DNA from: a virus
Reading direction: 5' to 3' (one strand)
Virus record (IMG/VR): IMGVR_UViG_3300044960_000095
Span: 1 to 47,636 of that record
DNA length: 47,636 bases
In this document: positions 3,874-40,992 of the stretch, one piece after another
Position numbering within the stretch: the first letter of the stretch is position 1
How the letters are laid out: every line of letters starts with the position of its first letter
Program-made: the position numbers and the translations under genes
Notes under the pieces: model-generated
Seen by the model: only the letters and a program-made list of their open reading frames with translations
Told to the model about the DNA's origin: nothing
Database searches by the model: none

Positions 3874-6800
3874 TGGCGCGTAACAGCTACGCCGAACAGG
3901 AAGCGATTACCTGGCAGACCGTAGGACTGCGACTCGGCGAGATTGGTCTCGACCTCCGCAACCGGACCACGCCGGGGGCACTCACGAAGCTGCTCAACGC
4001 GCGCTTCGAGGCCGATCGCATCGTCCGCCGCAACGGCTACCACGGCATCCGCCTCCAGCACGCGACTCAATTCCCCATCTTCCTTAACGGCGGTACGAGC
4101 ATTTCGTCAGCAATCAATCCAGTTGGGTGGATTTACGGCCACGGTCAGCAGGTCGACCCGAGCAACCCGTACGCGATCGAAACGATGCATTTCCCGGAGC
4201 CGCGCGTGGCCCGGGGCACGTTTCGGTACGAAGGCTCCGACGTTGTTTGGACCGGCGATCGTCTAATGATCGTCCGACGCGATGGCCATTCGGCAGTCGG
4301 CTACTCCGACTTCTGGGGCCTCCTCGTGAAGCACGCCGGCATCCCGGCGTTTCTCCCGCAGCAGGTCGACAGCCCGCCGCCGGACACGGTGACCGGCAAT
4401 TACGTTGAGACGTGTGTAACGGATACACAACGGTTTGTCGCGTGGGCCACCAGTACCGGCGTATCGTTGGTTGTCGTTGATCGCGCAACGGGCGCCGTCG
4501 TTAATCGCACTAGCGTTGGTGGGGCGGCTGCTTACGATATCAGACTGGTTCAGTCGGGCGCGTTTGTGGTCTGCGTGTGGAGGGATGCCAATACGGACCT
4601 CAACATTACAAAGTGGACCGGATTAACGTGGACCGCTGCCTCGCTTATTGACACGAACATCCGAGCGTTCGACCTAGCCCCCGTGCCGGGCGGGTTTCAT
4701 TTGCTGTGGCGTGATGGTGCCACGCTGTACGTCGGCAAATACGCAGGCCAGAACACCAGCAGCACCCCGTATGCTTTCCAAACGGCACTTTCGATTACGG
4801 GTACGCCAAACGGTCCGGTGGCCATTGCGGTCGCACCCGATGACACGCTCTGTGTGGTGTGGCAGTCCACCACGGGGTTGCAGGCCAAGGTGTTTAGTCA
4901 GTCGCTTGCGCAGATTTACGCGCAAACGACACTGAGTGCAACCACCATTTGGGACGGCGGACTATCGGTTTGCTCGCGCAGTTTGAAGGGGTCACCCTCG
5001 GGAGTCGCCGAGCCCTACTATCGATGGGTTGTTCACGCTGGAGACACAAACGGTAGCGTTTGGCTGGTTGAATTCCTGAATCCGGCGTCAGTCACGCGAC
5101 AGGCGACCCGTTACAATTCCAGGCTGGGTAGCAAGTCGTTTCGTGTTGGTAACGAGGTGTTCTGCTGGTTGCGCGCGACCAACTCGAGCACGCTCTACCT
5201 TGTCGGCGGAATCCATTCGGCTGGCATCTACACGCAGGTTTGCGGTATCGCGGATCGTGAGGAGGCGGCAACACGAGTGGTGCAAGACGGCGTGATGGCG
5301 CTGCCGATGGTCGTGCAGGATCCACTCGATGAGCACAGCTTCACGTGGGCGCGCCCGTTCTACACCGGGCAGAGCTACACGCGCGGCGGTAACGCGCGCA
5401 TCGGCGATCTGAACTTCCTCCCGACGTTCTCGGCGGCGCAGTACGGCGACTCGGTCTATATAGCCGGTAGCCACGTGCGATGTTGGGACGGCGTGGAGCT
5501 CGGTGACGCCGGCTTCCACGACTACCCGATCGTCACGGCCGCGACACCCGGCACCGGCGGTAGCCTCACGGTGAACTCGGCGTATCAGTACCGGGTCTAC
5601 CCCGTGCGCTACAATAAGCGCGGCGAGCGGTTCATGGGCGCGGCACTGACGTATGCCGCCAGTACGGGCGCGAGTGACACGAAGCTGACGCTGACCATCA
5701 AGACGCTGCCGGTGACCAACCACGACGACGTGGTATTCGAGGTTTACCGTACTGAGGCAGGACAGACAACCTTCCGTTTGGAGGGTACCGTCGCAAACAG
5801 CCTCACCGCCGGCACGGTGTCGTTCGTCTCGCAGATGTCCGACGCGACGTTGAGGACGCAGCCGGCGGACTCACATGAGGTCGGCGTTTCTGGCCCGGAA
5901 GAAGTCGAGGAGTTCGGCCCAATCGGCTGCGCGTTCCTAGTGGCCGCCGGTGATCGCCTGTGGGGCGCCGGTGGTCAGGTCCCGCGCGGGTTCGTGCAAT
6001 TCTCGAAGCTGAAGGAGCCCAAGGAGGGCGCCGGTTTCGATGCGCTGGCCGGTACGCAGCAGATCGACACTGAGGGCGGCGAGATCATCTCCATCGCCAA
6101 CTTCAGCGACAGCCTTGTCATCTTCGAGCGCGACCGCATCTACGTGCTGTTTGGCGGCGGGCCGGACAACTACGGCAACGGTGCATTCAGCACCCCTCAA
6201 CTCGTGCTAGCTGACGGCGCCGTCTCTCACGCGGGCACGTGTGTTACCCAGCTCGGCGTGCTGTTCTGGGGCGTCGACGGCCCCCGCCTGCTGACGCCCG
6301 CATTCAAAGTCGAACAGATCTGCGACCCCGTCCGCAAGCTCACGGAGACGCTGTCACCCTCCGGTGTGCAGGCGGATCTCGTCCGACGCGAGGTCGTGTG
6401 GTTCACCCGCGAGGGGACCGCAGTGCTGTTCAACTACGCCGGCCAGCGGCCTCGGTGGGCGCAGTGGACGGGCCTGAAGATCGCGGGGTGCTCGGACAGC
6501 GCGCTCGTCACCACGGACGGGCTGCTGCTACAGGAGGACCCCGACGCTAATGGCGACAACGGCGTGCCGTTTGAGTACGGGGGTGCTACTGGTGAGCTCG
6601 ACCTCGAGCAGCTGCTACTTGGCTGTACGGAGCTAAACCGCGTGGGCGTCGTCGGCGAGTACAAGGGGCCGCACCGCTTGCGCCTGCGGATCTACTTCAA
6701 CGGCTCGCCGATGTGGACCGATCAGCAGGTGTGGGACCCGAGGGACAAGACGTGGCTGGCCAGCGTCGAGGACGTTGCGAACCTCACGCCGGCGCAGGTC

Positions 6801-14333: not shown

Positions 14334-14499
14334 TCCCTGTCAGGTACTCCGGCTGCGTAAGCCGCCACCGTTGCATTTCGCAAATGGCGCCCTACCTCTG
14401 GAGGACCGAAAGGCACTCCTGCTCTGGATAGCCGATGTCGAGGAGACTCGGATCGCTCTTGAAGGCTGTCCGCTGGTGCAGCTGGTCGACGACGAATGA
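14245..14499 (+). CDS. o-spanin-like lipoprotein (Rz1-type), nested in the i-spanin
   Basis: This 84-residue protein reads in a different frame from the i-spanin, overlapping its last 89 bases. MRWLLVPTLTALIAC ends in a lipobox with Cys15, and a Pro-containing mature region follows (SSPKPKTVPT, RKPPPLH). I chose ATG 14245 rather than an upstream start because it places the lipobox at a normal distance and has a purine-rich GAGAGG site six bases upstream. Its stop overlaps the next start as ATGA. Confidence 0.7.
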   Translation: MRWLLVPTLTALIACFGSSPKPKTVPTSIDPCQVLRLRKPPPLHFANGALPLEDRKALLLWIADVEETRIALEGCPLVQLVDDE

Positions 14500-15113
14500 A
14501 GACTGCACTTCTTACTCTCGCACTCACCGCCTGCATCTCCCCGGTCCCCACGCTTCCCAAGGTCGCGGAGGACGCAACGTACGAGCTCCACACGCCGAGC
14601 GGCCAGTGTACCGCCTGGGCCGTGGACGACCACCACCTCGTCACCGCCGGCCACTGCTGCGACGACGAGGGCTCGTATTTCGCGGCGCAGCCGGGGCGGT
14701 CACTCCTACCCGCAGAGGTCGTCATGGGCCTCGATGTCGACTACGAGGCGCAGGCCCCCGTCGATATCTGCTTGCTCAAGACGGAGGCTTTCCTGCCAGC
14801 ATCCCTCGTGCTCGCCGACAAGATGCCGCTGCCCGGCGATCCCGTCGGCTTCGTCGGATACCCAAACGGCAAGTGGACGCACAACAAGGGCGTGTACGTC
14901 GGCGACATCGACGGCCCGTTCCAGTTTTGGAACGACTACGTGGCGACGGCACCCTGCGGCCCCGGCGCTAGCGGCTCGGCAATGTACTCCGAGGACGGTG
15001 TCTACGGAGTGCTGGTGCGGATGGTATTCGTCGGCGACCGCGTGTACCCGGGGGACATTGGGTGCGTGGCCAGTCCGCTCTACCAGATCGAAGCGATTCT
15101 GACACTGCGCTAA
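14496..15113 (+). CDS. Lipoprotein trypsin-like (S1-fold) serine protease
   Basis: This 205-residue protein begins with a signal ending in the lipobox LTAC (Cys13). The catalytic triad of chymotrypsin-fold proteases is visible: His53 in VTAGHCC, Asp90 in PVDICLLK, and Ser159 in CGPGASGSAM. The GYPNG and VLVRMVF strands fit V8/trypsin-like folds. Start ATG overlaps the o-spanin stop (ATGA). A lipid-anchored protease in a phage lysis cassette is uncommon. It may cleave envelope proteins during lysis or act on the cell surface. The fold call is strong; the target is unknown. Confidence 0.8.
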   Translation: MKTALLTLALTACISPVPTLPKVAEDATYELHTPSGQCTAWAVDDHHLVTAGHCCDDEGSYFAAQPGRSLLPAEVVMGLDVDYEAQAPVDICLLKTEAFLPASLVLADKMPLPGDPVGFVGYPNGKWTHNKGVYVGDIDGPFQFWNDYVATAPCGPGASGSAMYSEDGVYGVLVRMVFVGDRVYPGDIGCVASPLYQIEAILTLR

Positions 15114-17752: not shown

Positions 17753-18141
17753 ATGACTCCTTTCGCTTTCGTGATGCCGGCGACGTACCTCCGAAGGTGG
17801 AAGTACGGCCGGTACATCGCGTCGGGTAGAAGGAGGAAGGGAGTGCGCTCCTCCTCCATTAGCAGGCTGTTTGGGATGTCCTCGACGAGTCCGACATAAG
17901 CCGGCTCGGCCATCGGAATCTTCATCAGGCTGAAGACATCCATGTGCGCGCCGAGAGTGGCGAGTTGGGGGTGCACGACCTGGAGACCCAACTGTTTGCC
18001 GTCCTCGAGCTCCAGCACCCCTAACTCGTACTTGTCGCGCGTGGTGATGATGCGCGTGCCGGCGGATAGTGGGGCCATGATGACCGCCACCTGGGGATTC
18101 CGATGGAACGGCGCCGGCAGCAGCTCAATCCACGACTTCAC
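17743..18141 (-). CDS. Hypothetical protein downstream of RNA ligase
   Basis: The protein has 132 residues from GTG 18141, which overlaps the ligase stop as GTGA; the longer open frame above this start is a shadow of the ligase. The sequence looks globular alpha/beta (PAPFHRNPQVAVIMAPLS, GKQLGLQVVHP, FLLLPDAMYRPYFHLRRYV). No family recognised. Confidence 0.6.
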   Translation of the reverse strand: MKSWIELLPAPFHRNPQVAVIMAPLSAGTRIITTRDKYELGVLELEDGKQLGLQVVHPQLATLGAHMDVFSLMKIPMAEPAYVGLVEDIPNSLLMEEERTPFLLLPDAMYRPYFHLRRYVAGITKAKGVIWG

Positions 18142-19280
18142 GCACCCTTCCGCATGAGGTACTCCGCGCCGACGTACTTCGCCTTGCGACGGGGACCCTC
18201 GAGCGACTCGACGACAACGCCCTCGCGGATCTGGCTGTTGTCGAAGTACGACGGACCATCTGAGAGCAACCTCACGCCGTGTGAGCTGAACTTCAGCGGG
18301 TACCTTCCCGTGATGACCGGAACGGCCGGCAGGTCGCAGTCCGCCAGAACGCACTCGCGCTCGAACGGAATCAGCCATCCGCCATTTGGATGCTGTATGT
18401 CGAAGCACGCGAGACCGGGACCGTCCTCGGGCTTGCGGCCGTAGGTGAGGTCCTGGATCTTCCGCCCGCCGTAGGTGTAGCCGTACAGCTCGCCGTAGAA
18501 GACGTAGCCCTTGTAGTCCTTCGTCTTCTCCGCGAGGCGCATCCGCTCGGCCGCGTCCATCCACACGTCCTCGCCGTACCAGTGGTTGCCGTTACCGCCC
18601 TTGATCGTGCGGTGGCTGCCAACGACGAACTTCCAGCCGATGGGGATACCGAGGAAGCGACGGCGCACCCAACCGAAGCGGAAGTTGGTGCCGTGGATCT
18701 TCTCCGTGATGACGACCGGCTCATCCTCCTCGAACAGCCGTGGCAGCTTCTTCAAGCTGTCGACGGTGTAGACCGGGAACGGCTGCTTCTTCGGCTTCGA
18801 GCTCGGTGGCGTCGGGCCATTTGCGTCCGGCTCAGGCGCCCGGTAGTACGTCACGCCGAAGTGGTCGGCGCACCCCTCGCCAAAGGAGAGCTGCGATGGC
18901 GCGGGCACAAGCAGCCCTTGAGAGAACACGCCGCGCAGCCTCGCCGCCCTCAGCCGAAACACCTCCTTGCTCGCTCCGTCCGGCCGCTCCTTCAGGAACG
19001 CGAACGCCGAGTGGCTCGTCGGCAGGAGGCAGTCCACGCTGAAGTACGCCGCCAGATCCCCCGGGTTGTACTCGCCCTTCCGAACCACCACCTCGTAGGC
19101 CGTCTCGCCCGTCCCCGCCATCTCGAAGCGCGCGATCTCGAGTCGATCCGCGTTCGGGTGCGGAAGGATCCTCGTAATACGGACAATCTCGGCTGTGAAC
19201 TCCGTGTCCGTTCGCTGGCCACATGAATCCGCACTCGACGCAGAACCGAAAATCGATTTGAGCTTGCTCCACAGCTTCAC
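18138..19280 (-). CDS. RNA ligase, Rnl5/DraRnl-like, with N-terminal OB domain
   Basis: The protein has 380 residues from GTG 19280 (GTGA overlap with MazG). Residues ~20-130 resemble the tRNA-binding/OB fold (ILPHPNADRLEIARF). The C-terminal nucleotidyltransferase has motif I KIHGTNFRFG (adenylated Lys), VFYGELYGYTY, REGVVVES and motif V KAKYVGAEYL. This two-domain order is that of Deinococcus DRB0094-type ligases, which seal nicked RNA. With a phage tRNA present, tRNA repair is one possible job. Motifs visible; function inferred from family. Confidence 0.8.
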   Translation of the reverse strand: MKLWSKLKSIFGSASSADSCGQRTDTEFTAEIVRITRILPHPNADRLEIARFEMAGTGETAYEVVVRKGEYNPGDLAAYFSVDCLLPTSHSAFAFLKERPDGASKEVFRLRAARLRGVFSQGLLVPAPSQLSFGEGCADHFGVTYYRAPEPDANGPTPPSSKPKKQPFPVYTVDSLKKLPRLFEEDEPVVITEKIHGTNFRFGWVRRRFLGIPIGWKFVVGSHRTIKGGNGNHWYGEDVWMDAAERMRLAEKTKDYKGYVFYGELYGYTYGGRKIQDLTYGRKPEDGPGLACFDIQHPNGGWLIPFERECVLADCDLPAVPVITGRYPLKFSSHGVRLLSDGPSYFDNSQIREGVVVESLEGPRRKAKYVGAEYLMRKGA

Positions 19281-19618
19281 CGATCGTCCCCCGAACCGTG
19301 CAGCACCCCTCGCTCCTTGCGGTCGGCGAGCTTGCGCAAGTTCGTCTCGGCAACGTCCTGGAGATCGATGCCCCACTGACGCGCCACTTCGCTGAGGTAC
19401 CAGAGGGCGTCCCCCAGCTCCTTCTTGAGCGCGAGAGTCGTCTCGACGCGATCACCACGATCACGCCAGAACTTCTTGATCTTCTCAGCCACCTCGCCGG
19501 CCTCGCCATTTAGACCCAGCGCCGGGTAGAGCCCGGGCGGGAGGGGTGCCACTAGGCTGTCTCCCACCGGGTACGCCGCGAACGTTGCGGCCTTCGCCTG
19601 GTACTCGTTGAGCTTCAC
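19277..19618 (-). CDS. MazG-like nucleotide pyrophosphohydrolase
   Basis: The protein has 113 residues from GTG 19618, which overlaps the polymerase stop (GTGA). The MazG signature is clear: LGLNGEAGEVAEKIKKF supplies ExxE and KELGDALWYLSEVA supplies ExxD, ligating Mg. It would hydrolyse (d)NTPs to monophosphates or affect alarmone levels. It is between polymerase and RNA ligase in one coupled run. Confidence 0.85.
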   Translation of the reverse strand: MKLNEYQAKAATFAAYPVGDSLVAPLPPGLYPALGLNGEAGEVAEKIKKFWRDRGDRVETTLALKKELGDALWYLSEVARQWGIDLQDVAETNLRKLADRKERGVLHGSGDDR

Positions 19619-34344: not shown

Positions 34345-35184
34345 TCAATGCTCCACGAGCGCGATCACGCGCCGAATCTCCGCGAGACAGGCATCCCGAT
34401 CGTAGGTCTGGTTTAGCAGGATGGCATCGTGAGGGAGTGCGCCGCACCCCTGTAGACGGTCAAACGTACCGCTGTGGTTCCAGCCGCGCGTCATACCCAA
34501 ACCATCGCCAGCGTCGAACGGAAGCGTAAGACGCGCTCGGAACGTTTGGGTGCGGTGAACGCCCGCATGGCACATGACGCTCGCGATGATGTCCGTGCGC
34601 ACCGGCTCCGTCGTTTCCTTCAGAGTGATCAAGGTGGCGCCCCAATGCGGATCAACTCGAGACTCCACGCACGACGCTCCTAGCAACCGCACGACATAGC
34701 CAGCCGATTCGAGTACGTCGCACACGATGACAGCGCTAGCGCCAGCCCAAAACAACTGCTCGCGCGTGAGCCACCACGGGCCACCACACAGCGCTACCAC
34801 GTCGACGCACGTAACACCGTTGCTCCACACACGATGCGAAGTTCGCCACGCTTGATCCCACTGACCACGAAGCGCGCGATCCACGTCTAGCTCGTCGCCA
34901 TCATCAGCCCAACGCGGGCGACGCTTGCGAGACTTCGCCTCGGGCGGTGCGATCTCGGAGCGGATCTCCGCAAGCCTCTCGGCGCCAGCCGCCCATCCGT
35001 CACGTAGCAGTGCCGTAGCGTCGTGATGCGAGCGGATACCACCGAGATCTATGTCGCCACGCCGATCAACGTAGGTCGCGCGCTCGTAGGAGCGGTTAGC
35101 GTGGTAGAGCGGCTCGCTGTAGACGTTCACGTACTCATCGAACGCAAACAGACGGGCGACCATGTCATCGCTCTGATACAGCAT
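34345..35184 (-). CDS. Partner protein of the AAA+ ATPase, unknown family
   Basis: The protein has 279 residues from ATG 35184, which overlaps the AAA+ stop (TGATG). A Lys/Arg motif (KSRKRRPRW) follows the helical N-terminus, then RALRGQWDQAWRTSH, a segment with Cys and beta strands (VTCVDVVALCGGPWW, ASAVIVCDVLESAGYVV) like a VWA/DUF7192-type partner of CobS-like ATPases in other phages. The MIDAS motif is not seen. Pairing with the AAA+ gene is the main evidence. Confidence 0.55.
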   Translation of the reverse strand: MLYQSDDMVARLFAFDEYVNVYSEPLYHANRSYERATYVDRRGDIDLGGIRSHHDATALLRDGWAAGAERLAEIRSEIAPPEAKSRKRRPRWADDGDELDVDRALRGQWDQAWRTSHRVWSNGVTCVDVVALCGGPWWLTREQLFWAGASAVIVCDVLESAGYVVRLLGASCVESRVDPHWGATLITLKETTEPVRTDIIASVMCHAGVHRTQTFRARLTLPFDAGDGLGMTRGWNHSGTFDRLQGCGALPHDAILLNQTYDRDACLAEIRRVIALVEH

Positions 35185-36464
35185 CAGCGCACCCCCACCT
35201 TTGAAAGCTCGTCCGTGGTCCACCCTGCCGTAGCGCGACGGAGTGCACGCTCGATCGTCCAGCCGCCCTGCACCATGCGGGCAACGTTGAGGAGGAATCG
35301 CGTGCCGACGATGCGCCGGAGCTTTTGCTCGCTCACGCGATCACGAATCGACCACACACGCACACAAATGGAATCGTCGCCCACTAGCTCGCGTTCAAGG
35401 TCGCGATCGTAGTCGACCTCAATCATCGTGCCCACGAAGCGATCGAGAAACGCCGCGTCCAGCTGGTTGCGTCCGACGTACTGGCGATCGGTACCCGTGC
35501 CCCACGTGTTGGCGGCGCAGATGATCACGCTGTCAGGATGGCGCGTGGCCGTCGGCTGCTCTGCACGGTCCACGAGCGAGAGGTGGCCGTTTGCCGTGGC
35601 CGATTGGATGCAAAGCATCATGTTGGGATCGCTACCGTCCACCTCATCAAACAGGAACACGCCACCACACTCGTACATGCGCACGAAGTCAGTACCCTGA
35701 TAGCTGGTTGCGCCCGTAGTGAGGTTTGGAATTGCGCGCCCAACGATCTTGCCCTCGCTAACACCGGCGCTACACGAGATGCCAGCCCACCCACGAGCGT
35801 TGTCGCGCGTGCTGTCCAGTGCGCGAGCAAGGTCCGCCGCGAGCGTGGTCTTGCCCGAGCCAGCCGGGCCCACAACGTAGAAGTTACGGAACCCCATCGC
35901 GTACAGCTCCATGATCTCCGCGAGCGCCTTGTGAGTGCGCCCGCTCACCTTGGCGACGGTGGTACCGTTCACGCGGAAGTCGTGCACGCGCGCGCCCATC
36001 GCTCCGGTCTTGACGGCGTCCATGATGATCGCCGTGGCGATCTCGCTGGCACGACGCTCGATGTAGGCTGCGATCGTGGTACCGAGCGCTCCGTAGACAC
36101 TGAGATCGATCCCGGGTGCGCTGGTTGGTTTGGAATCCATTTGAATCTCGCCAGCGTCGCCATCATCGAGATCAGGGGTGCTCGTGCTGTCGCTGCTAGC
36201 CGACGCACCCCTGGGCGAGCAGATGCGATAGGGCTTGCCCGCTTTGCCAGCGCTGCACCGCCCGTGCTCGGCGCATTCGCGATAGGTGGAGTACGGCCCG
36301 ACCGTCCAAACGAGCGTGCCGTGGACCGGGCAAGCGGGGTGCTCGGGATCGGCCGCGTTGGTACCCTCAGCGGGGCAACCCTTGTGAGCGGGCTTGAAAC
36401 CTTTGAGGGTGTCGTACGCGACGACGGCGCCGCACGCGTCGCATTTCTTGCTGTACTTGGCCAT
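35184..36464 (-). CDS. CobS/MoxR-type AAA+ ATPase with N-terminal zinc-binding region
   Basis: The protein has 426 residues from ATG 36464. The N-terminal ~85 residues contain CDAC and later Cys/His residues (CPVHG, CAEHGRC, YRIC) of a zinc-ribbon type. After a linker comes the AAA+ core: Walker A VVGPAGSGKTTLA, Walker B GGVFLFDEVDGSD, sensor 1 IICAANTWGTG and an Arg-rich lid. Such chelatase-like ATPases remodel partners, here probably the 34345 product. Confidence 0.8.
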   Translation of the reverse strand: MAKYSKKCDACGAVVAYDTLKGFKPAHKGCPAEGTNAADPEHPACPVHGTLVWTVGPYSTYRECAEHGRCSAGKAGKPYRICSPRGASASSDSTSTPDLDDGDAGEIQMDSKPTSAPGIDLSVYGALGTTIAAYIERRASEIATAIIMDAVKTGAMGARVHDFRVNGTTVAKVSGRTHKALAEIMELYAMGFRNFYVVGPAGSGKTTLAADLARALDSTRDNARGWAGISCSAGVSEGKIVGRAIPNLTTGATSYQGTDFVRMYECGGVFLFDEVDGSDPNMMLCIQSATANGHLSLVDRAEQPTATRHPDSVIICAANTWGTGTDRQYVGRNQLDAAFLDRFVGTMIEVDYDRDLERELVGDDSICVRVWSIRDRVSEQKLRRIVGTRFLLNVARMVQGGWTIERALRRATAGWTTDELSKVGVR

Positions 36465-36466
36465 GA

Positions 36467-36670
36467 CTAGAGCACCCCCAGCAATGCGTTCGCTTGGTAG
36501 ACGAGATCGGGGCGACGTAGCTCCAACGCCGCTGTTAGCGCGCGATTGACACACGCGCGAGCCAACATCGGGCGACGTAATGCGTATGTCAGCGCGAGAT
36601 CCGTCTCGCAAATAAAGACGTGCAGCATTGTGCCGTCAAGACGGCAGGCGATCCAGGCGTAGCGATTCAT
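36467..36670 (-). CDS. Small hypothetical protein, first gene of the early arm
   Basis: The protein has 67 residues, with a TTGGAGGCC ribosome-binding site before ATG. It reads as beta then helical segments (YAWIACRLDGTMLHVFICET, ALRRPMLARACVNRAL). No family recognised. It is the promoter-proximal gene of the leftward transcript. Confidence 0.55.
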   Translation of the reverse strand: MNRYAWIACRLDGTMLHVFICETDLALTYALRRPMLARACVNRALTAALELRRPDLVYQANALLGVL

Positions 36671-37219: not shown

Positions 37220-37248
37220 TTGACAGCACCATTTGGATACCGTATAAT
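37220..37248 (+). promoter_or_regulatory. Consensus sigma70 promoter
   Basis: TTGACA (37220-37225), 17-base spacer, TATAAT (37243-37248), a perfect match. The spacer contains CCATTTGG. It should drive the lipoprotein gene at 37399 and could fire in a prophage. Confidence 0.85.
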
Positions 37249-37289
37249 AATAGCGACAGCAGTTAAGGTTTTGGCGGTGCTACGGCGCA

Positions 37290-37331
37290 GTCAGTGAGGG
37301 GTGCTGATAGCTGAGTCAGCTAGTCACTGAC
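37290..37331 (+). promoter_or_regulatory. Large inverted repeat with inner palindrome in the lipoprotein leader
   Basis: GTCAGTGA (37290-37297) pairs with TCACTGAC (37324-37331). Between them AGCTGAGTCAGCT (37309-37321) is itself palindromic. An AGGGGTGC copy starts at the end of the left arm. It may be an operator or an RNA switch. Confidence 0.6.
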
Positions 37332-37398
37332 GAGCAGCCGACAGGCCGACCAGCTAATAGTGGCTTGTAAGGCGCTAATGGCTGAGTAGCATAAGCAC

Positions 37399-37611
37399 AT
37401 GCGCTACTTGCTACTCCTACTCGTGGCGTGCTCGAGCTCGAGGGCGGCGCCGAGGCCGCAAGTGCCCGATACGCTAGTGGTCGCCGACGACATCTTCGGG
37501 AGCGTGACCGCCGAGATCGCGTTCGGCCCTGAGCCCGGAGCCTACGATTGCGAGGTGATGACGCCGGCCCCGCGACAGAACCCCAAGCCGGGCGAGATGA
37601 TTCCACGCTAA
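37399..37611 (+). CDS. Small lipoprotein
   Basis: The protein has 70 residues. MRYLLLLLVAC is a short lipoprotein signal with Cys11 in the lipobox; the mature part is Pro-rich with one strand pair (DTLVVADDIFGSVTAEIAFG). It has its own consensus promoter (37220) and a structured leader, unlike the late genes. Phage lipoproteins expressed this way often block superinfection; that role is only inferred. Confidence 0.65.
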   Translation: MRYLLLLLVACSSSRAAPRPQVPDTLVVADDIFGSVTAEIAFGPEPGAYDCEVMTPAPRQNPKPGEMIPR

Positions 37612-37668
37612 CGGCACCCCTAAATAGCAGTCTTGTCGCGTCGTTAGTAGTAGGCATATGAAAACCAT

Positions 37669-37698
37669 TTGACAGTGGCAGGTCAATCGCGGTATAAT
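37669..37698 (+). promoter_or_regulatory. Near-consensus sigma70 promoter upstream of the RNA region
   Basis: TTGACA (37669-37674), 18-base spacer, TATAAT (37693-37698). CCATTTG overlaps the -35 box. Transcription would begin near 37705 at a self-complementary GTGGGAGCTCCCAC and run into the tRNA and twin RNAs; 37705-37797 is a structured leader without a gene. Confidence 0.8.
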
Positions 37699-37797
37699 AC
37701 TTACGAGAAGTGGGAGCTCCCACCCACGCAGGTGACAGCGCAAAGGGAGACACGCTGAGTCGCCGGCCGATTACGGCGGATGACGGAGAAGCGTTGA

Positions 37798-37875
37798 CGC
37801 GGGATGAGGAAGTCCGGTCCATCCGCTCGGGCTCATTACCCGAGAACGCTGGTTCAAATCCAGCTCCCGCTACCA
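37798..37875 (+). tRNA. tRNA-Met(CAU), initiator-like
   Basis: A 78-base cloverleaf. Acceptor CGCGGGA pairs with TCCCGCT except position 1 (C1 x U72 mismatch, like the unpaired first position of initiator tRNAs). D-loop AGTCCGGTCCA has the invariant bases; the D-stem has one A-G mismatch. Anticodon arm TCGGG-CTCATTA-CCCGA carries CAT and three consecutive G-C pairs, a hallmark of initiator tRNA. T-arm GCTGG-TTCAAAT-CCAGC; CCA is encoded. The last ~50 bases could also serve as attP core. Confidence 0.75.
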
Positions 37876-37879
37876 ATTC

Positions 37880-37947
37880 GAGGCCACGTCCATCGCTTGG
37901 AGCCGTTTGCAGGGGTGCAGCGGGACCTCCAACTCGTGGGTGGCCTC
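37880..37947 (+). ncRNA. Structured RNA, copy 1 of a tandem pair
   Basis: A long hairpin starts four bases after the tRNA CCA. P1 GAGGCCAC/GTGGCCTC; inner CCA/TGG; internal loop TCGC/CTCG; P2 TTGGAG/CTCCAA; P3 CCGT/GCGG; bulged U; TGCA-GGGG-TGCA tip. AGCTTTTCT follows. Copy 2 has the same segment lengths on both sides with different paired bases. A terminator function is possible, but the conserved loops suggest a specific RNA. Confidence 0.75.
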
Positions 37948-37956
37948 AGCTTTTCT

Positions 37957-38027
37957 GACGGGCTGGCTGGTCGCTCTAGGCCACTTGCAGGGGTGCAGTG
38001 GAAGCTCTGGACTCGCCACAGCCCGTC
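37957..38027 (+). ncRNA. Structured RNA, copy 2 of a tandem pair
   Basis: P1 GACGGGCTG/CAGCCCGTC; inner TGG/CCA; internal loop TCGC/CTCG; P2 TCTAGG/TCTGGA; P3 CCAC/GTGG; bulged U; TGCA-GGGG-TGCA tip. ACCTTTTCT follows. Relative to copy 1 nearly every helix position differs but still pairs, while the unpaired TCGC, CTCG and the TTGCAGGGGTGCAG tip are identical. Confidence 0.75.
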
Positions 38028-38036
38028 ACCTTTTCT

Positions 38037-38119: not shown

Positions 38120-38184
38120 GCCCCGGCCGCTGTCGGTAAGTCCCTCGCGAGGGCACGGCGCGGTACCGGGGCGGCGCCTTTTCT
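38120..38184 (+). terminator. Strong hairpin ending in CCTTTTCT, likely terminator
   Basis: GCCCCGG (38120-38126) pairs with CCGGGGC (38166-38172), inside it CCGC/GCGG and a tight CCCT-CGCG-AGGG hairpin. GGCGCCTTTTCT follows. The same CTTTTCT ends both twin RNAs and the 45.7 kb terminator. It would separate the RNA region from the terminase operon. Confidence 0.55.
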
Positions 38185-38300: not shown

Positions 38301-38816
38301 GTGCTTAACGACGACGGTAAGCCGCGGCGTGGAAGACCACCGGGTTCCAGGAACAAGCCTAAAGAACGATTGGTACCGCCTAGTCATGTCCCGCTGGAAG
38401 ACATCAGACCTGTAGATCCAGACACCATCGTTGCTCGCCAGCTGACGATGCTCGATTGGGCACAGCAGGCGATGCGCAACGAGATGAAGCGCGCCATGCA
38501 GGCGAAGGGGCAGTGGATCTCCAGCGATGACATCGCGAAGCTCGAGAAGCTGTCGATGGCCATTGTTCGCGCCATCGAAGCGCTGAAGCGATCCTCCGAG
38601 CTGGCTGACGAGCTCGCCGCACGCCTCAACGCGGAGCAGCTGCTCGAGGCCGCCATCCGCAAGATTGAAGGCCAGGATCTCGCGACGCTGAACTACGCGA
38701 TCAAGCGACTAAGAGCCCACCGTGAGCGCCTCGCGCCGGTGGGCGGGTTCGACAAGATCCAGATGGGCGAGCCGGCCACCGCTACGGCTGCAATCGCCGA
38801 GCTGGCCGAGGAGTAA
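38301..38816 (+). CDS. Probable terminase small subunit
   Basis: The protein has 171 residues from GTG 38301, chosen over TTG 38256 because of GGAGAG just upstream. An AT-hook-like GRPPGSRNK lies near the N-terminus, followed by long helices (ELADELAARLNAEQLLEAAI) and an Ala-rich acidic end. It starts the packaging operon directly before the GNAT and TerL genes. DNA-binding N-terminus plus oligomerising helices fit TerS. Confidence 0.6.
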   Translation: MLNDDGKPRRGRPPGSRNKPKERLVPPSHVPLEDIRPVDPDTIVARQLTMLDWAQQAMRNEMKRAMQAKGQWISSDDIAKLEKLSMAIVRAIEALKRSSELADELAARLNAEQLLEAAIRKIEGQDLATLNYAIKRLRAHRERLAPVGGFDKIQMGEPATATAAIAELAEE

Positions 38817-39268
38817 TGCAGTTCGCGACTCCGACCGCCGACGAGCTGAAGCTGGTCTTCGACTCGTGGGCAAACAGCTTCCGCAAATCACCGTGGGCTG
38901 GCTGCATCCCGAATCACCTCTACGACCAGGTGAGCCGCGAGGTGCAGCGAAGCATCATGGACAGGGGTGCGCGTGTGCTGGTCGCCGTCACGCCGATCGA
39001 GGGGCACGAGGCCGAATTCCCGGAGGTGCGGCGCGTGATGGGCTACAGCGTCTCCGAGCCGGAGCGCGGCATCCTGCACTTCCTGTACGTCAAGGCGCCG
39101 TATCGTGGGATTGGCGTCGGTCGCGCGCTCAAGCAGCGGACCGTCATCGACTTCTCGGCAGGCCAGCAATGGACCTACACGTTCCGCACGCGCGCTAGCG
39201 AGCGGTTCCTCAACAGCGACGTACCCGGCGTGTTTCGTTGGGACCCGGTGCCCGCTCGAGTCAAGTAA
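38816..39268 (+). CDS. GNAT-fold acetyltransferase-like protein
   Basis: This 150-residue protein has the acetyl-CoA site in YVKAPYRGIGVGRAL (motif A, R-G-x-G-x-G-R) preceded by strand GILHFL, as in GNAT enzymes. TAATG overlaps at both ends. GNAT-like genes next to terminase are seen in several podovirus genomes; the substrate is not known. Confidence 0.65.
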   Translation: MQFATPTADELKLVFDSWANSFRKSPWAGCIPNHLYDQVSREVQRSIMDRGARVLVAVTPIEGHEAEFPEVRRVMGYSVSEPERGILHFLYVKAPYRGIGVGRALKQRTVIDFSAGQQWTYTFRTRASERFLNSDVPGVFRWDPVPARVK

Positions 39269-40992
39269 TGTCTCGCACTCTCGAAAAAGCGCTACGGAAG
39301 GAAGCCGGGCGCACTGACGCGCAGAAGGAGGTAGACAAGCGCTGTCGCGAGCGGGCCAAGAAGATGCTCGCGGACCTCCAGCGCGTGAACCCCAAGGCGG
39401 CGGCGATGGTCCTCGATCCGTCTCCGCACGTCGCGGCTATTTGTCCGCGCCGCGCCGGCAAGACGTACGCCGCAGTGCTCGCCGCGCTGATCACCGGCGA
39501 GGCCAAGCCGGGCTCTATCAGCCTGATCATCTCGCTGAATCTCAAGCAGCTGCGCCGCCTCTATTGGGCCGGCGGTCCTTCGGGCCTGTTCACCATCGCG
39601 CGGAAGTACGGACTCCACCTCGAGTTCAACAACACCTTCCTGCGCTGGGAGCACGAGAACGGCAGCATCGGCTACCTCCTCGGCGCCGACGACGACGAGC
39701 AGCTCGAAGTCATTCGCGGTCTCGAGGCCGACCTCTACATCATCGACGAGTGCAAGAGCTTCCAGCCGGTCGTGCTCGAGAAGCTCATCGAGGACATCAT
39801 CGACCCGCAGCGGGCCTCGCGTAAGGGCCGCATCGTGATGATTGGTACCCCCGGTTTCATCATGGCCGGACCGTTCTGGCAGGCGACGTGTCCCGACGCG
39901 ACGTTCGAGATGGAGTACCCCGAGGGCTCCGGTCAGAAGGTTCGCGCGCGCTACTCCGTCGACTACGGGCAGCAAGATCCCTACGGTCGCACCGGTATCC
40001 TTGTTTGGTCGCGGCACCATTGGACGCTCCAGGACAACACTGCGATGCCCCACCAGTGGGAGGAGGCGCTCGCGAAGAAGCGGCAGAAGGGTTGGTCCGA
40101 CGACGACCCGACGTGGATGCGCGAGTACCTCGGCATGTGGACTTCGAGCTCCGAGGGACTCGTCTTCCGCTACCACGAGGAGAAGCGCACCGGTCGCGTC
40201 ACCTGGCAGCCGAAGTCGAAGCGTATCGACCAGACCACTCTTGCTGAGCCGGACGCGCTACCGGAGGACGGTAAGCCCTGGCGGCTGATTGCCGGCCTCG
40301 ACATCGGCTACGAGGCGCCCACCGCGTTAGTCGTTTGCGCCTACTCGTCGAAGCTGCGCCAGCTCCGCGTCATCGCTGACTACTCGCGCAGCCACATGCT
40401 CGTCCCGGACATCGCCGAGATGATCTACGACGCGCAGCGCCGGTACGGACCCATCGAGAAAATCTACGCCGACGTTGGCAACCTCGGCAAGATGGTGGTC
40501 GAGACCCTCGTTCGCGAGTACGGTTTCCCACTCGAGAGGGCCGACAAGCGCGAGAAATACGACCACATCGAGCTCCTCAACGCCGCATTTAGTCGTGGCG
40601 AGGTGCTGGTCATCGAGAATTCCACCCTCGAGAACCAGCTGCTCACGGTTTGCTGGGACCTGCGCGACGACAATAAGGGCGCGAAGGACCTGCTCGCGCG
40701 TCAGGGCAAGCTCCGCGAGGACGACTCGATCCCAAACGACAGCACCGACGCGCTGCTGTACTGCTATCGCGGCTCGCTGCACCACTTCGGATGGAAGCCA
40801 TCTGAACCGCAAGTGGAGCCCGGCACCCCCGAGTGGGTGAAGCAGAAGGAACTGCGCGCGCTCGAGCTCGCCCGCAGACAGCTAATCGACGCGGAGAAGC
40901 GTGGCCCGCTGGTCACCAACGACCTGCCGAGGGGCTCGTACTTCATCCAGCGCGCACTCACGAGGCTGCGATGGTCACTCCCGAAAATCTGA
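39268..40992 (+). CDS. terL: Terminase large subunit
   Basis: The protein has 574 residues from ATG 39268. Walker A CPRRAGKTYA (~60), Walker B LEADLYIIDECKS (~157), coupling motif VMIGTPG, then the RNase H-like nuclease with Asp in GLDIGYEAPTALVV (~345), DVGNLGK and NDSTDALLY. It packages DNA into the prohead through the portal. The 3' end overlaps the next gene by 22 bases. Confidence 0.92.
   Translation: MSRTLEKALRKEAGRTDAQKEVDKRCRERAKKMLADLQRVNPKAAAMVLDPSPHVAAICPRRAGKTYAAVLAALITGEAKPGSISLIISLNLKQLRRLYWAGGPSGLFTIARKYGLHLEFNNTFLRWEHENGSIGYLLGADDDEQLEVIRGLEADLYIIDECKSFQPVVLEKLIEDIIDPQRASRKGRIVMIGTPGFIMAGPFWQATCPDATFEMEYPEGSGQKVRARYSVDYGQQDPYGRTGILVWSRHHWTLQDNTAMPHQWEEALAKKRQKGWSDDDPTWMREYLGMWTSSSEGLVFRYHEEKRTGRVTWQPKSKRIDQTTLAEPDALPEDGKPWRLIAGLDIGYEAPTALVVCAYSSKLRQLRVIADYSRSHMLVPDIAEMIYDAQRRYGPIEKIYADVGNLGKMVVETLVREYGFPLERADKREKYDHIELLNAAFSRGEVLVIENSTLENQLLTVCWDLRDDNKGAKDLLARQGKLREDDSIPNDSTDALLYCYRGSLHHFGWKPSEPQVEPGTPEWVKQKELRALELARRQLIDAEKRGPLVTNDLPRGSYFIQRALTRLRWSLPKI

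Follow-up and report, generated by a model that had tools for sequence, protein, structure and literature searches.

The DNA analysed here, referred to as the window, is the whole of the metagenomic IMG/VR record IMGVR_UViG_3300044960_000095 (47,636 nt). Between a group of leftward genes (DNA polymerase, helicase, ERF and integrase) and a rightward terminase-portal-capsid operon it carries two tandem hairpins, preceded by two sigma-70 promoter sequences and a tRNA gene and followed by the genes of the small and large terminase subunits, terS and terL (Table 1). The two promoters are the only sites in the 47.6-kb window that match the consensus at 12 of 12 positions, and the leader transcript is likely to start from the proximal one, at about position 37706. 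The assignment of terS is based on its place before terL and on 47% identity to the protein of the related phage L007; neither Pfam nor PHROG gave a match for it. Coding across the hairpins was rejected, since the relatives hold no homologous frame and no reading frame there is conserved.

Table 1. Features of the late-operon leader in the window, and the hairpins of two related phages (positions in their own records)
Feature	Positions	Strand	Remarks
Upstream sigma-70 promoter	37220..37248	+	TTGACA-17-TATAAT, 12/12 consensus
Proximal sigma-70 promoter	37669..37698	+	TTGACA-18-TATAAT, 12/12 consensus
tRNA gene	37798..37875	+	anticodon CAT, encoded ACCA end
Hairpin copy A	37880..37947	+	P1 = 37880-37887 with 37940-37947
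Tip of copy A	37908..37919	+	TGCA-GGGG-TGCA; CAGGGGTGC unchanged in 4/4 copies
Tail behind copy A	37948..37956	+	AGCTTTTCT, from sequence
Hairpin copy B	37957..38027	+	P1 = 37957-37965 with 38019-38027
Tip of copy B	37986..37997	+	TGCA-GGGG-TGCA, read from sequence
Tail behind copy B	38028..38036	+	ACCTTTTCT, from sequence
Leader 3' part	38120..38183	+	stem GCCCCGG/CCGGGGC, then directly GGCGCCTTTTC
terS	38301..38816	+	likely GTG start at 38301; open frame from 38256
terL	39268..40992	+	PHROG matches
L007 hairpin, single copy	4326-4393	same as terS	upstream of terS
L009 hairpin, single copy	4136-4203	same as terS	upstream of terS

Architecture of the tandem hairpins

An earlier note on this DNA had described two adjacent hairpins of about 70 bases at 37880-38027 built on one architecture, and the sequence is as described, with standard pairs formed at all of the named positions (26 of 26 in copy A and 27 of 27 in copy B). 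The identical tips and the shared build given there also hold, but the description of the segments had to be refined. The lower part consists of P1 of 8-9 bp, a 2-nt 5' bulge (GY) and a helix of 4 bp, instead of 3, whose last pair, U-G, is invariant; a 3x3 internal loop (CGC/CUC) follows, flanked by U-G and U-A; and a bulge of 3-4 nt lies on the 3' side beyond P2. The tip, with the consensus (T)GCA-GGGG-TGC(A), is identical in the two copies, which share 76% identity across the central 37 nt and little sequence in the basal stems. The spacing from copy A to copy B is 77-78 nt and, since CTTTTCT stands after both, the duplicated unit comprises hairpin and tail; the same tail is found 3' of the L007 hairpin and is missing in L009.

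The folding energies are -36.6 kcal/mol for copy A and -38.5 kcal/mol for copy B (z -2.7 each), and 3 and 4 of 200 shuffles, respectively, fold equally well. Folded as a single 191-nt piece, the two copies together have an energy that is ordinary for their composition (z -0.91), so that stability alone would show little and the evidence lies in covariation. An intrinsic terminator was rejected for these hairpins: the U run is short (four U), stands 3-4 nt from the stem by eye and is missing in L009. A terminator scan at the hairpins of the three phages found none, its loop limit also excluding branched or bulged stems.

Conservation of the fold in related phages

Relatives were collected from IMG/VR by portal, capsid and terminase protein searches, which gave four distinct related phages, some present as two contigs. 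They are named here by the first of their records: L007 (L007/L008/L010/L045), L009 (L009/L011/L044), L012 (L012/L016/L046, with L013/L017) and L014 (L014/L048, with L015/L047). Capsid identity to the window is 43-64% over the four relatives and 54-64% for L007 and L009, the two that carry the hairpin. The window phage is remote from isolated phages, as among 50,697 phage records its TerL has one weak match and its portal none; likewise, two scans of bacterial genomes returned no relatives of TerL.

With the single copies of L007 and L009, four copies are available from three phages. In their alignment 91.5% of the cells pair, and 15 of the 24 pairs have changed on both sides with pairing kept; none of 500 shuffles matches these values, which bears out the compensatory helices proposed in the earlier note. 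When the partners are slid by one base the signal is gone, every slid register collapsing. The basal helix has ten pairs, none of which is broken in any copy and nine of which are doubly changed, and RNAalifold, by itself, gives nearly the same structure. The letters that stay unchanged are CAGGGGTGC in the tip, ACTCG in the 3' strand of the internal loop, both closing pairs (U-G and U-A) and the base that opens the 5' bulge. The tip and the internal loop are thus nearly invariant, and the freely varying loops that had been associated with ordinary terminators were not seen. As the stems are free to change whereas the tip and the internal loop are not, the element looks like an RNA that is bound.

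A covariance model built, as had been suggested, from the two window copies alone was run on the window, its relatives and HK022. Besides the window copies, it recovers the single copy in each of L007 and L009 (E 7e-7 and 9e-7) and returns nothing else; this test is independent in sequence and not wholly in structure, because the structure line was drawn from all four folds. The shape is kept in two distant relatives despite almost complete replacement of the stems, so that the RNA element is real, and it is a previously undescribed one. These covarying homologues also uphold the view that the hairpins are a conserved fold and not simple terminators, and we regard the structural part as practically certain.

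The remaining two relatives, L012 and L014, keep the same operon with homologous terminase and portal. The four-copy covariance model finds no copy in either, nor in a whole-record search of their contigs G003 and G004, and a full search without filters of L046 and L048 with the covariance model R1 gave chance scores only. A scan of viral contigs for the twin-tip pattern returned four matches, all simple tandem repeats or chance, and a scan of IMG/VR for the tip plus internal loop returned 22, with the fold present only in the L009 contig. A further CAGGGGTGC site in L009 (9936) was rejected, its fold being unlike the other copies. When the leader was compared with phages by blastn, the best among the matches listed were tRNA matches only, and no Rfam family apart from tRNA matches the stretch; a weak similarity between the L009 hairpin and an Rfam microRNA family (20 bits, against a gathering score of 75) was taken as chance.

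The tRNA unit, the promoters and the remaining leader

The position of the tRNA gene is held in L007 and L009 by degenerate tRNA-like units. In alignment, the L007 unit has the same acceptor stem, the encoded ACCA and compensatory changes in the anticodon and T stems; it is without the normal D- and T-loop bases, and both ARAGORN and Infernal missed it. The acceptor stem and T arm are the sole remains of the tRNA in L009. It is these two parts of the unit that are kept, and the others decay. At all three loci the hairpin lies between the strong promoters and terS on the same strand, the upstream promoter having its counterparts at 3693 in L007 and 3739 in L009, and the proximal one at 4083 (10/12) and 3982 (12/12), respectively. 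The gap between tRNA unit and hairpin is 0-9 nt in each of the three phages, and from hairpin to terS there are 354 nt in the window (from copy A), 267 in L007 and 114 in L009, the positions behind these figures having been set by hand from the sequences. Because the gap to the tRNA is near-constant and the distance to terS is not, the hairpin belongs with the tRNA and the leader rather than with packaging. A regulatory sRNA and a tRNA-processing element had been left equally open in the earlier note; both are weighed below, and the near-constant gap makes the tRNA link the better lead.

After the hairpins, the leader of all three carriers has a long stem followed directly by GGCGCC and a pyrimidine run (three sequences); the stem sequences differ in L007 and L009, and the L009 version has CTTCC. 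Other leader parts are poorly conserved. A GC-rich hairpin followed by TTCTTTTTT stands immediately before terS in L007 (~4600-4645), and no terminator was recognised between hairpin and terS in L009. None of these leader sites was classed as a terminator by the scan of the window, L007 and L009, whose loop limit excludes the GC-rich hairpin of L007.

The upstream promoter seems to start a second transcript (window 37249-37668, L007 3722-4082, L009 3769-3981). GCACCCC, the complement of the hairpin tip, occurs in this region of all three phages, and GGGGTGC, able to pair with it, is also present there in the window and L007. Since GCACCCC is found in 33% of equal-sized window pieces, a high background, its pairing with the tip is a weak lead. 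Between both promoters the window holds a 70-aa frame with a lipoprotein-like start (MRYLLLLLVACSSS; 37399-37611) and L007, in the same interval, an unrelated 36-aa membrane-like frame, and GCGGCGACTGAGCG is common to the upstream leader of L007 (~3750) and the leader of L014 (~4420).

In L012, tRNA genes and fragments occupy 1561-2546, the cluster ending no more than about 5 nt from the likely terS start. A tRNA-Asn there directly adjoins terS, and tRNA processing would therefore leave an almost leaderless terS mRNA. An acceptor-plus-T-arm-like hairpin lies right before terS in L014 (4719-4760), where the covarying hairpin is absent. Elsewhere in the window, an RNA ligase gene (18138-19376) is also found in the L012 and L014 records and not in those of L007 and L009, and so does not track the hairpin. 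A DUF7192 protein lies beside an AAA ATPase whose C-terminus is weakly CbbQ-like (34345-36611), and a trypsin-like protease gene (14496-15113) is the last of the rightward gene block. Phage-type RNA polymerase was also looked for, but since even the controls gave no match, this negative result was set aside.

Possible roles of the element

We hypothesize that the hairpin is a cis-acting leader element that controls the late (terminase-portal-capsid) operon by a put-like mechanism, and give this reading a probability of roughly 0.4. The figure concerns the mechanism; what the analysis shows is the fold with its conservation and duplication, the position behind the tRNA unit, and the promoter sequences. 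Transcription, processing and binding of the hairpin, and its action in cis on the late operon, we infer from its position, the promoters and the analogy to HK022 put and the lambdoid late leader. Transcription would begin at the strong sigma-70 promoters and pass the tRNA or tRNA-like unit, then directly one or two hairpin copies and then terS. The tRNA-like unit, acting as a processing handle, would most likely be excised by host tRNA-processing enzymes, and RNA polymerase or an RNA-binding factor may recognise the hairpin via the invariant CAGGGGUGC tip and the CGC/CUC internal loop. Once bound, the hairpin would act in cis, like a put site, on continued transcription into the late operon or on its stability. 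The GC-rich hairpin before terS in L007 suggests the kind of site that a leader element must overcome. As a clear terminator is seen only in L007 and none was recognised in L009, the leader holds no conserved target for antitermination, and the absence of the hairpin from two relatives with the same operon counts against the cis-acting leader.

HK022 put (putL and putR) consists of two nascent-RNA stem-loops of ~70 nt, with bulges and conserved bases, downstream of sigma-70 promoters (PMC9378689). It binds the beta' zinc domain, through which it suppresses termination in cis. The window likewise has two tandem hairpins, but the put stem-loops together span ~70 nt whereas here each hairpin does and the relatives have one, and put lies in early operons whereas the present hairpin lies in a late leader, after a tRNA. 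A search of HK022 (AF069308) with the covariance model R1 gave no match up to E 10, so that no homology to put is seen. The late leader of lambdoid phages, from PR' to tR', can itself yield a stable sRNA, StxS (PMC7873438). It resembles the present locus in its strong promoter and untranslated leader ahead of the late genes; in contrast, no Q-type gene was identified in the window phage, and the leader here holds a tRNA unit and a covarying hairpin, the sequences having been compared through Rfam.

Two rivals to the cis-acting leader are serious. A phage RNA acting in trans is possible though unlikely: the strong promoters would give the leader, trimming at the tRNA unit would follow, and the hairpin, as a stable RNA, would bind a host or phage target via its GGGG tip, like StxS or a protein decoy. 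The constitutive-looking promoters and the exposed, invariant tip are in line with this, and the PR'-tR' late leader, from which a stable sRNA is cut, offers a precedent (PMC7873438). The tip complement in the upstream transcript of all three phages would fit as well, but this is a post hoc match of 7-8 nt with the high background given above. We consider it unlikely that the hairpin is instead a processing or stability element, such as a T7-like RNase III substrate or a protective 5' stem on the late mRNA after tRNA excision. Its ~26 bp with internal loop and bulges would suit such a role, and it adjoins the tRNA-like 3' end, so that tRNA 3' processing would put it at the mRNA 5' end; the tRNA-Asn directly against terS in L012 points the same way. 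For neither of these roles, however, would the apical loop have to be invariant and the bases of the internal loop nearly so.

It is distinctly improbable that the hairpin belongs, as one domain, to a larger ornate RNA like the oligomeric, tRNA-linked phage RNAs GOLLD and ROOL. These two are structured noncoding phage RNAs found beside tRNA islands (PMC12286853), and the hairpin, too, adjoins a tRNA, with CAT anticodon, in a promoter-driven leader of ~300-600 nt that has more similar parts (the GGCGCCTTTTC 3' part). Nevertheless, their fold is another one and GOLLD is far larger (many >800 nt), the rest of the present leader is poorly conserved, and cmscan with relaxed E-values (up to 5 for the window stretch and 10 for those of L007 and L009) still gave no match to GOLLD, ROOL or another such Rfam family.

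In YrlA and other bacterial Y RNAs a tRNA-like unit is joined to a bulged, Ro60-binding stem, and the window locus also couples a tRNA-like unit with a bulged stem. No Rfam covariance match to YrlA or Y RNA was found in the window, L007 and L009 stretches, and a TROVE/Ro60 gene was found in none of the five records (possibly incomplete), one control genome being positive.

A packaging RNA working with the terminase, the idea raised in the earlier note, is very improbable, as its only link is the position before terS-terL, the one likeness to phi29 pRNA, whereas the hairpin is not fixed to the terminase, stands at a varying distance from terS, is missing in two relatives with homologous terminase and portal, and has no Rfam match. 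An element acting as DNA (cos/pac repeats, a TerS binding site or a single-stranded hairpin substrate) would agree with imperfect inverted repeats close to terS, but is highly improbable, since a double-stranded site needs no compensated stem replacement and the place relative to terS is not constant.

Returning to the cis-acting leader, a further version of it is rather improbable, namely an RNA outside the lambdoid phages that antiterminates without a protein and is coupled to a tRNA-like unit removed by tRNA-processing enzymes. If true, removal of the tRNA would place the hairpin at the start of the late transcript, and such phages would have their tRNA as a processing handle, with decoding as at most a second function. 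To our knowledge, few phage RNA elements combine a conserved fold with coupling to a tRNA unit. If the hairpin acts in cis, a compact RNA would control an entire late operon in a group of uncultured phages. Furthermore, the series from a full tRNA in the window, through a defective one in L007, to an acceptor-plus-T-arm remnant in L009 lies within one locus, and makes the purpose of this phage tRNA directly testable there.
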